Below the pieces are notes generated by a model. That model worked only from the letters and a program-made list of their open reading frames with translations. It ran no database searches and was not told the DNA's origin. 36,245 nt of DNA from Hyphomicrobiales bacterium (GTDB lineage Bacteria > Pseudomonadota > Alphaproteobacteria > Rhizobiales > Aestuariivirgaceae). The stretch lies in contig JALXCV010000143.1 of assembly GCA_026990765.1 (NCBI GenBank), positions 1-36,245 on the forward strand, read 5' to 3'. Below, piece after piece: positions 13,353-36,245 of this stretch; positions within the stretch are counted from its first letter, which is position 1, and each line of letters opens with the position of its first letter. The position numbers and the translations under genes were made by a program.

Positions 13353-13386
13353 GGTTTTTAATCTGGAAACGCAACGGGCGGTGCAA

Positions 13387-13764
13387 TTACAGTTTGGGTT
13401 TGACTGTCGGGAAATTCAATTTTTGCCAGGCGGTCATTCCACCTTCAAGGTGGCATATATCCTTATATCCAGCCTGACGCAGAATGCGAACTCCACCCAA
13501 AGAGCGGTTGGCATTCTGGCAAATAACGACAACTGGTCTGGACTTGTCAAAGCCCAGATTTTCGGTTTGGCCCTTGAGTTCATATACCGAGACAACAGTA
13601 CTGCTGCGAATGGCACCGGTTTTCCATTCAGCTATGGTTCTGACATCCAGCAATTGCGGTTTGTTGCGGGTCTTGGCAAGTTTCTGCATCAGTTCCTTTG
13701 GGGTGATTTCAGCTTCCTTGCCGAAAGGCAGCCACCACAGATATTTATCAACAATAGCGCTCAT
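13387..13764 (-). CDS. Single-domain rhodanese-like sulfurtransferase
   Basis: The 125-residue protein is one rhodanese domain. It has the LLDVRTIAEWKTGAI block (CH2A-like motif), the active-site loop CQNANRS starting at Cys82 with the C-X4-R spacing of catalytic sulfurtransferases, and the C-terminal LEGGMTAW motif. The likely reaction is persulfide transfer from the active-site cysteine; physiological donor and acceptor are unknown. The first 15 residues include a WW pair, but I see no signal peptide, so it is probably cytoplasmic. An AGGA ribosome binding site precedes the ATG. It lies downstream of the TetR gene on the same strand (85-base gap) and could be read from that transcript. Confidence 0.92.
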   Translation of the reverse strand: MSAIVDKYLWWLPFGKEAEITPKELMQKLAKTRNKPQLLDVRTIAEWKTGAIRSSTVVSVYELKGQTENLGFDKSRPVVVICQNANRSLGGVRILRQAGYKDICHLEGGMTAWQKLNFPTVKPKL

Positions 13765-32767: not shown

Positions 32768-33337
32768 ATGACCGCTCAGAAAAAAACAAAAAAGAATAAA
32801 TTCAAGGCAGGGGAATTTGTTATTTATCCATCCCACGGGGTTGGCAAGGTTGTTGATATTGAAGTTGAAGAGATCGCAGGGATTCATCTGGAATTGTATG
32901 TGATTGATTTTGACAAGGAAAAAATGCGTTTGCGGGTTCCTCTGGCCAAGGCTGACAGTGTCGGTATGCGCAAATTATGTGACAAACTGGATATCGCCAA
33001 GCATCTGACGATACTTGAAGGTCGCCCGCGCATCAAGCGCACCATGTGGTCGCGCCGGGCGCAGGAATATGAAGCCAAGATCAATTCGGGCGAGTTGAAA
33101 CTGGTTGCTGAGGTCGTGCGTGACCTGTTCCGCTCTGAAACCCAGCCTGAACAGTCATATTCAGAACGCCAGCTTTATGAAGCAGCACTTGACCGGATGG
33201 CCCGTGAAGTTGCTGTTGTTAAAAAATATGATGACAAGCAGGCAATTGAAGAAATGGAAAGCATCATGCGTGCTTCCAAATACCGTGCTCCAAAACCAGC
33301 AGAAGAAGAAAGCGACGGCGAAGAAAAAGCCGCGTAA
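32768..33337 (+). CDS. carD: CarD/CdnL-family RNA polymerase-binding regulator
   Basis: I take the ATG at 32768 (MTAQKKTKKNKFKAG), giving 189 residues. The longer frame from 32630 would translate through the terminator hairpin, so it is rejected. A lysine-rich N-terminus is followed by the Tudor-like RNA-polymerase interaction domain at about 15-75 (FVIYPSHGVGKVVDIEVEEIAG, then YVIDFDKEKMRLRVPLAKADSVGMR). A helical DNA-interacting C-terminal domain follows (RRAQEYEAKINSGELKLVAEVVRDLFR). CarD/CdnL proteins stabilise open promoter complexes, for example at rRNA promoters (established knowledge). It has its own terminator at 33363-33399 and is probably a single transcription unit downstream of fdxA. 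Confidence 0.94.
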   Translation: MTAQKKTKKNKFKAGEFVIYPSHGVGKVVDIEVEEIAGIHLELYVIDFDKEKMRLRVPLAKADSVGMRKLCDKLDIAKHLTILEGRPRIKRTMWSRRAQEYEAKINSGELKLVAEVVRDLFRSETQPEQSYSERQLYEAALDRMAREVAVVKKYDDKQAIEEMESIMRASKYRAPKPAEEESDGEEKAA

Positions 33338-33507: not shown

Positions 33508-33535
33508 GCAATAAGAAATGAATATAGGCAAGATA

Positions 33536-33886
33536 ATGAAACCATCCACCATAATCACAATGAGTGCCACTTTGGGTTTTTTCGTGATTTTTTCTCTTCC
33601 GGTTCAGGCCCAAACTATACCGACATTTAAAATATCGATGAATAACGGAGTTGTTACACCAGCAAGGCTGGAAGTGCCCAAAGATGTCAATGTCAAGCTT
33701 GTAGTGACCAATAAAGGTTCAGCGACAGCAGAATTTGAAAGCAAGATGCTGCATATCGAAAAAATAGTGGCTGCAGGTGCAACAGTCACATTGACCTTGC
33801 GCGGGCTAAAAGCTGGTTCATATGAGTTTGTTGATGAATTTACGGAAGATAAAAAAACCGCACATGGTTTTATCATCGCCAAATAA
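33536..33886 (+). CDS. Periplasmic cupredoxin-domain protein of an iron uptake pair (FtrB-like)
   Basis: I choose the ATG at 33536 (AGG nine bases upstream), giving 116 residues that open with a standard signal peptide (KPSTIITMSATLGFFVIFSLPVQA, cut near residue 25, shown split by its hydrophobic core). The ATG at 33518 is an alternative. The mature part is a single beta-sandwich of the cupredoxin_1 type (ITPTFKIS-like start, PARLEVPKDVNVKLVVTNKG, LRGLKAGSYEFVDEF). The usual copper ligands of blue copper proteins are not obvious; there is no cysteine and few histidines. Followed after 49 bases by an FTR1 permease, it most resembles FtrB of Brucella-type ferrous iron uptake systems, where the cupredoxin supports iron oxidation or delivery. 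Confidence 0.8.
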   Translation: MKPSTIITMSATLGFFVIFSLPVQAQTIPTFKISMNNGVVTPARLEVPKDVNVKLVVTNKGSATAEFESKMLHIEKIVAAGATVTLTLRGLKAGSYEFVDEFTEDKKTAHGFIIAK

Positions 33887-33935
33887 TTCTTGCACATTTA
33901 TCCGGTAATTCATCTACCCAAGAGGAAAGTGGACC

Positions 33936-34760
33936 ATGTCTGGCCAAATAATTTTCATTGTCTGGCGTGAAAGCGTCGAAGCGCTTTTAGTGGTTGGAAT
34001 TTTGAATGCCTGGTTGCAGCATAACGCATCTGACAGCGGAGCCAGGCGCTATTTGTGGGGGGGCGTTGCTGCCGGGATTGCGGTAGCATTTGTGATTGCC
34101 TATGTGATTTTCAATCTGGCTGCGTCTTTGCCACCAGATGCGCTGGATTACTTCATGGTGGCGATGATGTTGATTGCAACCATTTTGATAATGCAAATGG
34201 TCTTCTGGATGCGCACCCATGGGTGTCAGCTAAAGCAGCATCTGGAACAGGGTCTGGGTGCAGCTGTGGCCCATAAACGCTGGTGGGGAATATTCATGCT
34301 GGCAATGATTGCCGTGGCTCGCGAAGGTAGCGAAACGGTTGTCTTTGTCTATGGGCTGTTATCATCGGCAAGAAATGATGGCATGTTGCAGATAACAGCT
34401 GCAATTGCGCTGGGTTTTGCAATTGCTGTTGCAACCTATGGATTATTGCAGCTTGGCGGGCGTTACCTGTCATGGCGACTGTTTTTCAAATTCACCGAAA
34501 TCATGTTGCTTTTATTAGGCTGCGCGCTTGCAGTAAGCGCCGCCGGCAAACTGATTTTACTTGGAATCCTGCCATTTACCTCAGTCATATGGAATACCGG
34601 CTGGCTACTGGATGACGGCTCGCGATTGGGCGGAGTAATCAGCGCCCTGACCGGCTACAGATCAGCACCTGATCTGGTTGTTCTGGCTGTATGGGTAATT
34701 TATTGGGGGGCGATCCTTTTTGTTACCAGACTGCAACAAATGCGAATAAGGCTCAACTGA
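33936..34760 (+). CDS. FTR1-family iron permease (FtrC-like)
   Basis: The 274-residue protein has seven or so membrane helices and the two iron-translocating REXXE motifs of the FTR1/EfeU family: RESVE (residues 11-15) in helix 1 and REGSE (129-133) in helix 4. It takes up iron across the inner membrane, usually as Fe3+ made by oxidation of Fe2+ at the outer face. An AGGAAAG ribosome binding site precedes the ATG. It follows the cupredoxin gene and forms a two-gene unit with it. Full Ftr systems also have a P19-like periplasmic protein (FtrA) and an iron-sulfur membrane protein (FtrD); neither is here. Its last 8 bases overlap the convergent dusA gene. Confidence 0.92.
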   Translation: MSGQIIFIVWRESVEALLVVGILNAWLQHNASDSGARRYLWGGVAAGIAVAFVIAYVIFNLAASLPPDALDYFMVAMMLIATILIMQMVFWMRTHGCQLKQHLEQGLGAAVAHKRWWGIFMLAMIAVAREGSETVVFVYGLLSSARNDGMLQITAAIALGFAIAVATYGLLQLGGRYLSWRLFFKFTEIMLLLLGCALAVSAAGKLILLGILPFTSVIWNTGWLLDDGSRLGGVISALTGYRSAPDLVVLAVWVIYWGAILFVTRLQQMRIRLN

Positions 34761-35721
34761 CCAATTCCAGTGCTTTTGCAACAATATCAGAACCGGCATT
34801 GTCCAGATGGGCGTGGTCTGACAGGTAGCGTCGCCATTTGCGTGCGCCCGGTCTTGCGTGAAACAGGCCGAGCATATGCCGGGTTATCTGGGACAGTCTG
34901 GCACCGGCAGCTAGCTGTTGATCAATCCATGGCAACATGGCTTCAACTATTGCCTTGCGATTATCAAAGCGGTCGGGTTTTCCATATATCTGACTGTCAA
35001 CAGAGGCCAGAATGAACGGGTTGTGATAGGCGGCTCGACCAAGCATAACCCCGTCAACATGCTGCAAATGCTGCTTTGCTGCTTCAAGATCGGCAATGGC
35101 GCCATTTATGTGGATTTCAAGTTCCGGGTGGCTTTGTTTCAGGCGGTAGACGCGCTGGTAATTGAGCGGAGGTATTTCGCGGTTTTCCTTGGGTGACAGG
35201 CCCTGAAGCCAGGCCTTGCGGGCATGGATGATGAAGGTTTCACACCCTGCAGAGCTTACAATATCAACAAACCGCTCAAGATCTTCATCCTCATCATGAT
35301 CGTCAATTCCGATGCGGCACTTGACGCTAACCGGTATTTTAACAGTTGAGCGCATGGCAGATACACATTCGCCCACAAGTTCCGGTTCAGCCATCAAGGC
35401 AGCGCCAAACCGGCCTGACTGCACCCTGTCAGACGGGCAGCCAACATTCAGATTGATTTCATCATAGCCAAATTGTTCACAAATTGCCGAGGCCTGTGCC
35501 AGTTCATCCGGTTTTGACCCGCCAAGCTGGACGGCAATGCGATGTTCAAATTCATCAAACCCGACAAGGTGCCGGCGATCCCCAAACACTACCGCGCCTG
35601 ATGTAACCATCTCGGTATAAAGCAGCGCATGTCTGGTTATAAACCGATGAAACCCGCGACAATACCGATCAGTCCAGTCCATCATCGGGGCTACGGAGAA
35701 TGTTTTTTGGTGAGGTTTCAA
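34753..35721 (-). CDS. dusA: tRNA-dihydrouridine synthase A
   Basis: The 322-residue FMN enzyme reduces uridines in the tRNA D-loop (U20/U20a in E. coli). Family features are the N-terminal FSVAPMMDWTDRYCR, MVTSGAVVFGDRR, the NLNVGCPSDRVQSGRFGAALM block with catalytic Cys95, KCRIGIDDHDEDEDL, FIIHARKAWLQGLSPKENR, NGAI and VMLGRAAYHNPF. Homology reaches to within a few residues of the start, but the only available start codon is TTG at 35719-35721, with a TAG stop 15 bases upstream in frame and no recognisable ribosome binding site. This suggests the original 5' flank was replaced, perhaps by the IS-like sequence immediately upstream. The 3' end overlaps the iron permease by 8 bases. Confidence 0.94.
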   Translation of the reverse strand: MKPHQKTFSVAPMMDWTDRYCRGFHRFITRHALLYTEMVTSGAVVFGDRRHLVGFDEFEHRIAVQLGGSKPDELAQASAICEQFGYDEINLNVGCPSDRVQSGRFGAALMAEPELVGECVSAMRSTVKIPVSVKCRIGIDDHDEDEDLERFVDIVSSAGCETFIIHARKAWLQGLSPKENREIPPLNYQRVYRLKQSHPELEIHINGAIADLEAAKQHLQHVDGVMLGRAAYHNPFILASVDSQIYGKPDRFDNRKAIVEAMLPWIDQQLAAGARLSQITRHMLGLFHARPGARKWRRYLSDHAHLDNAGSDIVAKALELVS

Positions 35722-35729
35722 TTGTTTAT

Positions 35730-35907
35730 ACTATTGTTGGAAGGGTTGTACAGGGAAAATAGTGTGCGGAAAAGGGCACTGTTGTACGGATTTGGATGTC
35801 TTTTGATCCCTTAGAGTACGAAATTTGTACGGCTTTAGCAAATTGTACGAAAGTGGGCATGGTCACTATTGTAAAGACATAAGAAGGAAGATGGCGTACA
35901 ATAGTCC
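35730..35907. repeat. Cluster of seven TTGTAC-type repeats upstream of dusA
   Basis: Copies of a motif close to CTATTGTACGG occur at 35730-35740 (ACTATTGTTGG), 35746-35751 (TTGTAC), 35777-35789 (CACTGTTGTACGG), 35825-35832 (TTGTACGG), 35843-35849 (TTGTACG), 35864-35874 (CACTATTGTAA) and, inverted, 35893-35907 (GGACTATTGTACGCC on the minus strand). Spacing is irregular. IS21-family elements are known to carry several short repeats at their ends as transposase binding sites, and an IS21 transposase fragment follows, so this may be an element end. Iteron-like regulatory use is the alternative. Confidence 0.6.
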
Positions 35908-36013
35908 ACCGTAGGCGGTAAATATGCGTCCCGTACCTTCCGTGTCAAATTTTAAGCCGAAATTGTTCACCCCCAAGCTGTGCTTTGATGATCTGGTAAG
36001 CCTGAATGCCTAG

Positions 36014-36245
36014 TTGTTCATGAACTGTAATGCGTTAGGCTCGCGCTCTCACCCTGAGCAGAAAAATAATATAGTTGTTGCGGTTTTTGCACTGGAACGC
36101 ACCGAACTGCGATCATTGCGTCTGGGTTTTGACGGTTATGTGGAAAAAGCGGTTCGGGTGCGTTCCACCCGTCAGGTTAAATATGACCGCAACTGTTACA
36201 GCGTTCCATCCAGGTATGCAGATTGTCTTATCTGTCTGCGCGCCT
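36014..36245 (+). pseudogene. istA: IS21-family transposase (IstA) C-terminal fragment, running off the window
   Basis: After a TAG at 36011-36013 one frame stays open to the end of the window. From an ATG at 36020 it reads as the C-terminal region of an IS21-type IstA transposase: HPEQKNNIVVAVFALERTELRSL, then GFDGYVEKAVRVRSTRQVKY and DRNCYSVPSRYADC, the latter resembling the family's RNRYSVP segment. The N-terminal helix-turn-helix and DDE catalytic domains, about 1 kb, are missing upstream; stops occur in the same frame at 35912-35914 and 36011-36013. This is therefore a truncated and probably inactive copy, unless the rest lies elsewhere. The stretch 35908-36010 shows nothing else. Several unusual cysteines hint at decay. 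Confidence 0.65.

Follow-up and report, generated by a model that had tools for sequence, protein, structure and literature searches.

A repeat cluster at the start of dusA as the probable island-side remnant of a decayed DAI island

The main text of PMC4482086 describes dusA-associated integrase (DAI) islands as replacing the 5' end of dusA, and the text of PMC8409611 reports one dusA island that supplies a promoter and an N-terminus. DAIs are placed next to Rci in the main text of PMC4482086; since Rci itself is without an arm-binding domain according to the text of PMC8138268, this domain was examined here on DAI relatives only. In the texts of PMC8138268 and PMC2951348, integrases of this kind act on core sites through their catalytic part and on arm sites through their N-terminal domain, and autorepression is possible where the att region and the integrase promoter overlap.

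We compared with these systems the region upstream of dusA in a contig from a Hyphomicrobiales bacterium. The window, by which we mean the whole stretch of DNA that was analyzed, comprises 36,245 nucleotides and is the entire contig (G000:C143:1-36245). We consider it highly probable (approximately 0.86) that a repeat cluster in this window is the island-side half of an attachment junction from a decayed DAI island and that its repeats are integrase arm-type sites. The locus is a decayed member of this known island type, which corrects a misleading reading of it as IS21 ends beside a damaged dusA.

The dusA start and the att segment

The dusA gene is intact, encodes 322 aa (Pfam Dus, E = 6.4e-87), and occupies 34753-35721 on the minus strand, with a TTG start at 35719-35721. 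Ahead of it in window coordinates, at 32770-33337 and 33518-34760, are genes that we take to be CarD-like, small cupredoxin-like, and iron-permease-like. The 5' end of dusA contains an att core region at 35673-35734 (limits approximate, no strand assigned) that matches at 79% a second copy in the same-genus genome G002 (C117:17289-17350 versus 13358-13487), located 3.9 kb from the dusA of that genome. The TTG of dusA falls inside this att segment.

An in-frame TAG (35731-35733, minus strand) stands four codons ahead of the TTG, and between this TAG and the conserved SVAPMMDW the TTG is the sole start codon. No Shine-Dalgarno-like run was identified upstream of the TTG on inspection, and the description of dusA in the initial annotation, as a gene with no ribosome binding site and only a TTG start after an in-frame TAG, holds on inspection of the sequence. 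The arrangement in the window, TAG-TAT-AAA-CAA-TTG, has near twins with the same layout in the related loci L031 (TAG-CAT-AAA-CAA-TTG) and L042 (TAG-GAT-AAA-CGA-TTG). Only one promoter-like match was identified on the minus strand (35948-35921), at a distance of 200 bases from the TTG, and the total of two matches on both strands, compared to 0.6 expected, is near chance.

A TTG eight codons before SVAPMMDW was identified in 14/30 DAI loci compared to 4/14 loci scored as being without DAI, although the latter class is not clean in that it wrongly includes L012 (integrase match) and probably includes scars (e.g., L009 and L011). The stretch from the final in-frame stop to SVAP contained no ATG in 7/30 and 4/14 loci of these classes, respectively, and starts were limited to TTG/CTG in 5/30 and 3/14, and thus were not commoner in DAI loci, in a tally that left out genes without the searched AP-motif. 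The similarity of these rates suggests that they do not separate DAI loci, whereas segment identity does. We read the predicted TTG start as island-supplied sequence rather than as IS damage.

The repeat cluster and the integrase remnant

TTGTAC occurs four times in the forward orientation (35746, 35782, 35825, and 35843) and once inverted as GTACAA (35896) in the span 35731-35907. Five TTGTAC/GTACAA were reached in 0 of 2000 dinucleotide shuffles, and elsewhere in the window TTGTAC attains a maximum of two per 177-base stretch (3553 overlapping stretches), with the test motif having been picked post hoc, after the data were seen. In a motif-free test based on the commonest 6-mer on both strands, 10 of 2000 shuffles equalled the observed count of 5, as did at least 10 of 3555 other window stretches. 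Judged by this second test, the cluster is unusual, although it has equals elsewhere in the window. The cluster is real, and its meaning derives from comparison with relatives.

The initial annotation had counted seven near-copies of one motif. The cluster itself stands, but alignment with relatives reassigns two of the copies (CACTATTGTA at 35864 and the inverted copy at 35895-35905) to codons of a broken integrase gene and one (ACTATTGTTGG at 35730) to the att core. The copies left as repeats, all on the plus strand, are proposed arm-type repeats: TTGTACAG at 35746-35753, based on motif count; TTGTACGG at 35782-35789, where the nearest relatives have TTGCACGG, and again at 35825-35832; and TTGTACGA at 35843-35850, which like both TTGTACGG copies was identified by alignment and motif count. 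Two weaker copies comprise AGTACGAA at 35815-35822, also a proposed arm-type repeat based on alignment, with the next GTACG 11 bp on, and GTGTGCGG at 35762-35769, which aligns near the first repeat of relatives.

Further copies of the array were not found in the same genome, where five other matches span only 14-19 bases with E values above 1. A search of public genomes and viral contigs with one exact 16-base pattern found no sister element with a TGTAC array; the pattern occurred in 91 + 27 stretches, with 0 matching dusA or the G002 integrase N-terminus. Dense TTGTAC/GTACGG clusters were observed in three viral contigs (L167, L169, and L172), with no dusA or DAI-integrase match in the fetched locus.

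The DAI-type tyrosine integrase gene beside dusA is present solely as a broken N-terminal remnant. This pseudogene, a remnant of the arm-binding domain, lies at 35859-35949 on the plus strand, divergent from dusA, and was identified by tblastn with the N-terminus of the integrase of a related locus, L034 (MATIVRTKEGRWRAQVRRKGKYASQTFRIK), which it matches at 63% over 19 and 82% over 11 residues (E = 2.4e-5). It reads MVTIVKT*EGRWRTIVHRR (35859-35915) and, in another frame, GKYASRTFRVK (35917-35949). A TAA at codon 8 and this frameshift interrupt the gene, and similarity stops at 35949, where the remnant ends; a complete integrase with catalytic residues is absent here. No other DAI integrase was detected in the genome at E <= 1e-5, a cut-off that also missed the remnant. 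The lack of a complete integrase suggests a decayed relic rather than a working DAI member. A pattern for a second att copy, with <=2 mismatches allowed, matched only dusA in the genome, which is in 169 contigs, and a second copy may therefore be lost, diverged, or in a gap. Because the contig ends in an IS21 fragment, the island body is unseen and one junction is visible.

Homologous loci and integrase-linked repeats

A DNA search of 60 related genomes revealed that similarity to the window dusA reaches approximately 35730 in the same-genus genomes G003 and G002. In G002, TGCACGCT repeats come after dusA and precede the start of a tyrosine integrase gene, with the second copy of the dusA 5' end 3.9 kb off. 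The G002 contig (C117) has the appearance of tandem dusA islands, with dusA and an integrase fragment followed at that distance by the second dusA 5' end and a decayed integrase start (L030/L031). When the G002 integrase N-terminus was used as a query, matches were identified in 31 of 298 related genomes, and dusA was also present in 20 of 30 fetched loci (L033-L062). Twenty dusA-integrase loci and the second G002 copy (L031) align with the window over a span that starts in dusA, crosses the array, and extends into the integrase start, with L030, L033, and L051 left out before alignment as duplicates and L052 and L053 left out due to a poor integrase anchor. The window and L046 have TTTGATCCCTNNNNGYACGAAATTTGYACGG in common.

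A nucleotide profile aligned without the window found its best place at 35775-35911 (E = 2.3e-9; next, 1.6). An earlier profile, from an alignment made with the window present, yielded E = 1.5e-8 (next, 2), and the array part alone, from an alignment made with the window and with the window row then removed, yielded E = 2.4e-4 (next, 1.3). The array and the integrase start in the window are homologous to those of DAI loci. A class-wide profile search of 385 genomes returned no matches at E <= 1e-60, a cut-off that was too strict. In a further genome (G010, C22), a dusA 5'-end match (29 bases, E = 0.003) lies approximately 76 kb from dusA (25178 versus 101046) and may mark the distal att of a large island.

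A repeat-count test applied across the family was weak (p <= 0.05 in 16/63 loci compared to 4/63 controls, a modest difference), and a spacing test, devised after the arrays were seen, was therefore made. Near-identical upstream regions were removed from each set (83 to 63, 159 to 103, and 211 to 138 loci). Among 63 deduplicated integrases, 7-mers alike in at least six positions recurred at a spacing of 10 in 38 and at a spacing of 11 in 46, compared to 3/63 and 5/63, respectively, in control segments. The window's own 11-bp pair is alike in only 5/7 positions, under this cut-off. Repeat pairs spaced 10-11 bp were identified ahead of the integrase in 113 of 138 related loci, where spacings of 14-15 had counts of 13 and 12. 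These 10-11 bp pairs were present in 46 of the 50 loci with dusA and in 67 of the 88 loci without it, some of which end just short of dusA. When the 138 loci were sorted by upstream signature, pairs accompanied dusA in 63/69, a tRNA-like signature in 19/27, and neither in 31/42 (ARAGORN identified a tRNA gene in one of the eight tRNA-like loci tried, L207). The presence of pairs under all three signatures suggests that the arrays belong with the integrase, not with dusA.

Repeats vary between elements and agree within one array. Across 122 scorable loci, the identity of one repeat base follows integrase residue 15 (C with Q, and T/A with I/L/M/F/V), with the 16 loci that have D, E, K, R, T, or none at this position excluded. 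Residue 15 is Q in 77/138 loci (66 with C-type repeats, 2 with T/A-type, 8 with none, and 1 tie) and I/L/M/F/V in 45/138 (38 with T/A-type, 5 with C-type, and 2 ties). Discordant loci are L183 and L281 (Q with T/A) and L222, L268, L273, L389, and L393 (hydrophobic with C). Thirty-five loci gathered after the repeat classes were fixed yielded 12:0 and 2:14 (p = 6e-6, ignoring shared descent), with a residue pattern that was widened after those loci were seen since the narrow pattern failed on many; the narrow pattern yielded 3:0 and 0:3 among the new loci (p = 0.1, ignoring shared descent). In a tree of 95 loci with long integrases, in which the window and L016 are not included, approximately 5.1 of 6 independent pairs on supported branches agree, 0 oppose, and 0.9 are without difference, and the median p of 0.06 over the tree pairs is not significant. 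The covariation is a lead rather than a result, and shared descent may explain it.

Codon 15 of the window remnant is ATA (I) and its repeats have TGTAC, compared to Q with TGCAC in the nearest relatives, L034 and L050; L016 fits too (I, TGTACGC). We tentatively suggest, at slightly less than an even chance, a code by which the repeat base of DAI-like integrases is set by residue 15, which is the Q of WRAQVRRKG and lies in the second N-domain strand. In such a code, Q may pair with TGCAC or TGCTAC, and I/L/M/F/V may pair with TGTAC or TGATAC. The array and integrase may switch together, and the fossil in the window may keep one such co-switch, I15 with TGTAC. If true, this rule would make the arm sites of many integrases predictable from sequence and the evolution of their specificity testable.

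Proposed origin, alternatives, and described systems

We propose that a mobile island inserted at the start of dusA, with the N-terminal domain of its integrase binding the repeats as arm-type sites and the catalytic domain acting on the core in dusA. The direct repeats sit between the att core and int, as expected of candidate arm-type sites, and we infer that the integrase bound them as such. Since the integrase ATG follows 8 bases after the end of the last repeat, occupancy of the repeats probably also repressed the integrase gene, as suggested by this position and by analogy to KplE1 IntS (text of PMC2951348). The island would have given dusA a new 5' end with a TTG start, after which the integrase gene would have decayed and an IS21 IstA fragment would have joined on. 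In a predicted model of a related viral-contig integrase (L186; mean pLDDT 83.5, pTM 0.56), the N-terminus comprises three strands and a helix, and the alignment of the model with full-length lambda Int begins at residue 1 (Z = 17.6, rmsd 9.4, 309 residues); its fold matches are carried mainly by model residues 54-337, such that the N-domain was barely tested. The integrase N-domain has a weak link to AP2 in Pfam (E = 0.12), which carries no weight here.

The initial annotation had instead taken the repeats to be transposase-binding terminal repeats left by an IS21-family insertion at dusA, and an IstA fragment does adjoin the array at 35963-36245 (plus strand), running with one TAG to the contig end. 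This fragment is internal, however, rather than an IS end: it matches at 55% residues 259-359 of the 514 of IstA (E = 6.5e-28; tblastn alignment from 35942) and PF22483 at 27 bits (cut-off, 27), and the IS21 left end is absent from approximately 35963 to the contig end. A second IstA copy was not detected in the genome at E <= 0.001 with a same-genus IstA as the query. The left side of a same-genus IS21 copy (L029 1881-2130; right end beyond the contig) has no TTGTAC or GTACAA, contrary to the expectation that the repeats would recur at IS21 ends, and together with the internal nature of the fragment this argues strongly against the repeats as IS21 ends. The array is homologous to integrase-associated arrays, and the alignment of dusA upstream regions places comparable repeat clusters and the TTG of relatives beside an integrase rather than an IS. 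An IS21 origin is thus extremely improbable. What survives of the earlier proposal is its outline, in which the native start of dusA would have been replaced when a mobile element entered the 5' end of the gene with its recombinase-binding repeats; the element was misidentified and is a tyrosine-integrase island.

Repeats directly upstream of a gene whose promoter must be in or near them would be consistent with a regulatory array through which a host regulator controls dusA, but comparable pairs precede integrases with a tRNA-like upstream signature (19/27) and different integrases come with different repeat sequences, making this reading very unlikely. Directionality factors bind near att sites. 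A dusA island requires RdfN for its excision according to the text of PMC8409611, and the repeats might accordingly bind an RdfN-like factor of the island rather than the integrase. We consider this unlikely, if less so than a host regulator, given that the repeats adjoin int and that the repeat base tracks a residue of the integrase N-domain. A search for PF11112 found no match in this genome or in any control genome and was uninformative. Integrase arm-type sites are the reading that we prefer.

The DAI islands of Farrugia et al. (2015; main text of PMC4482086) resemble this locus in the site at the dusA 5' end, the adjoining integrase gene, and the island-supplied 5' end of dusA, whereas this locus retains a short integrase pseudogene and shows a single junction. 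Repeats described in that main text are att direct repeats rather than an arm array. The dusA of IMEVchUSA3 and related Vibrio islands starts with ATG (Fig. 6 legend, PMC8409611), and the term 'arm-type' is absent from the text of that paper. In the text of PMC4482086 and PMC8409611, we found no arm array described for DAI islands. With the array, a fossil island at dusA becomes recognizable from three elements, the others being the att segment and the integrase scrap. KplE1 differs in being a tRNA-associated (argW) prophage, yet the attL of its IntS is alike in placement: in the text of PMC2951348, arm-type sites lie between the att core and the integrase ATG and overlap the integrase promoter.
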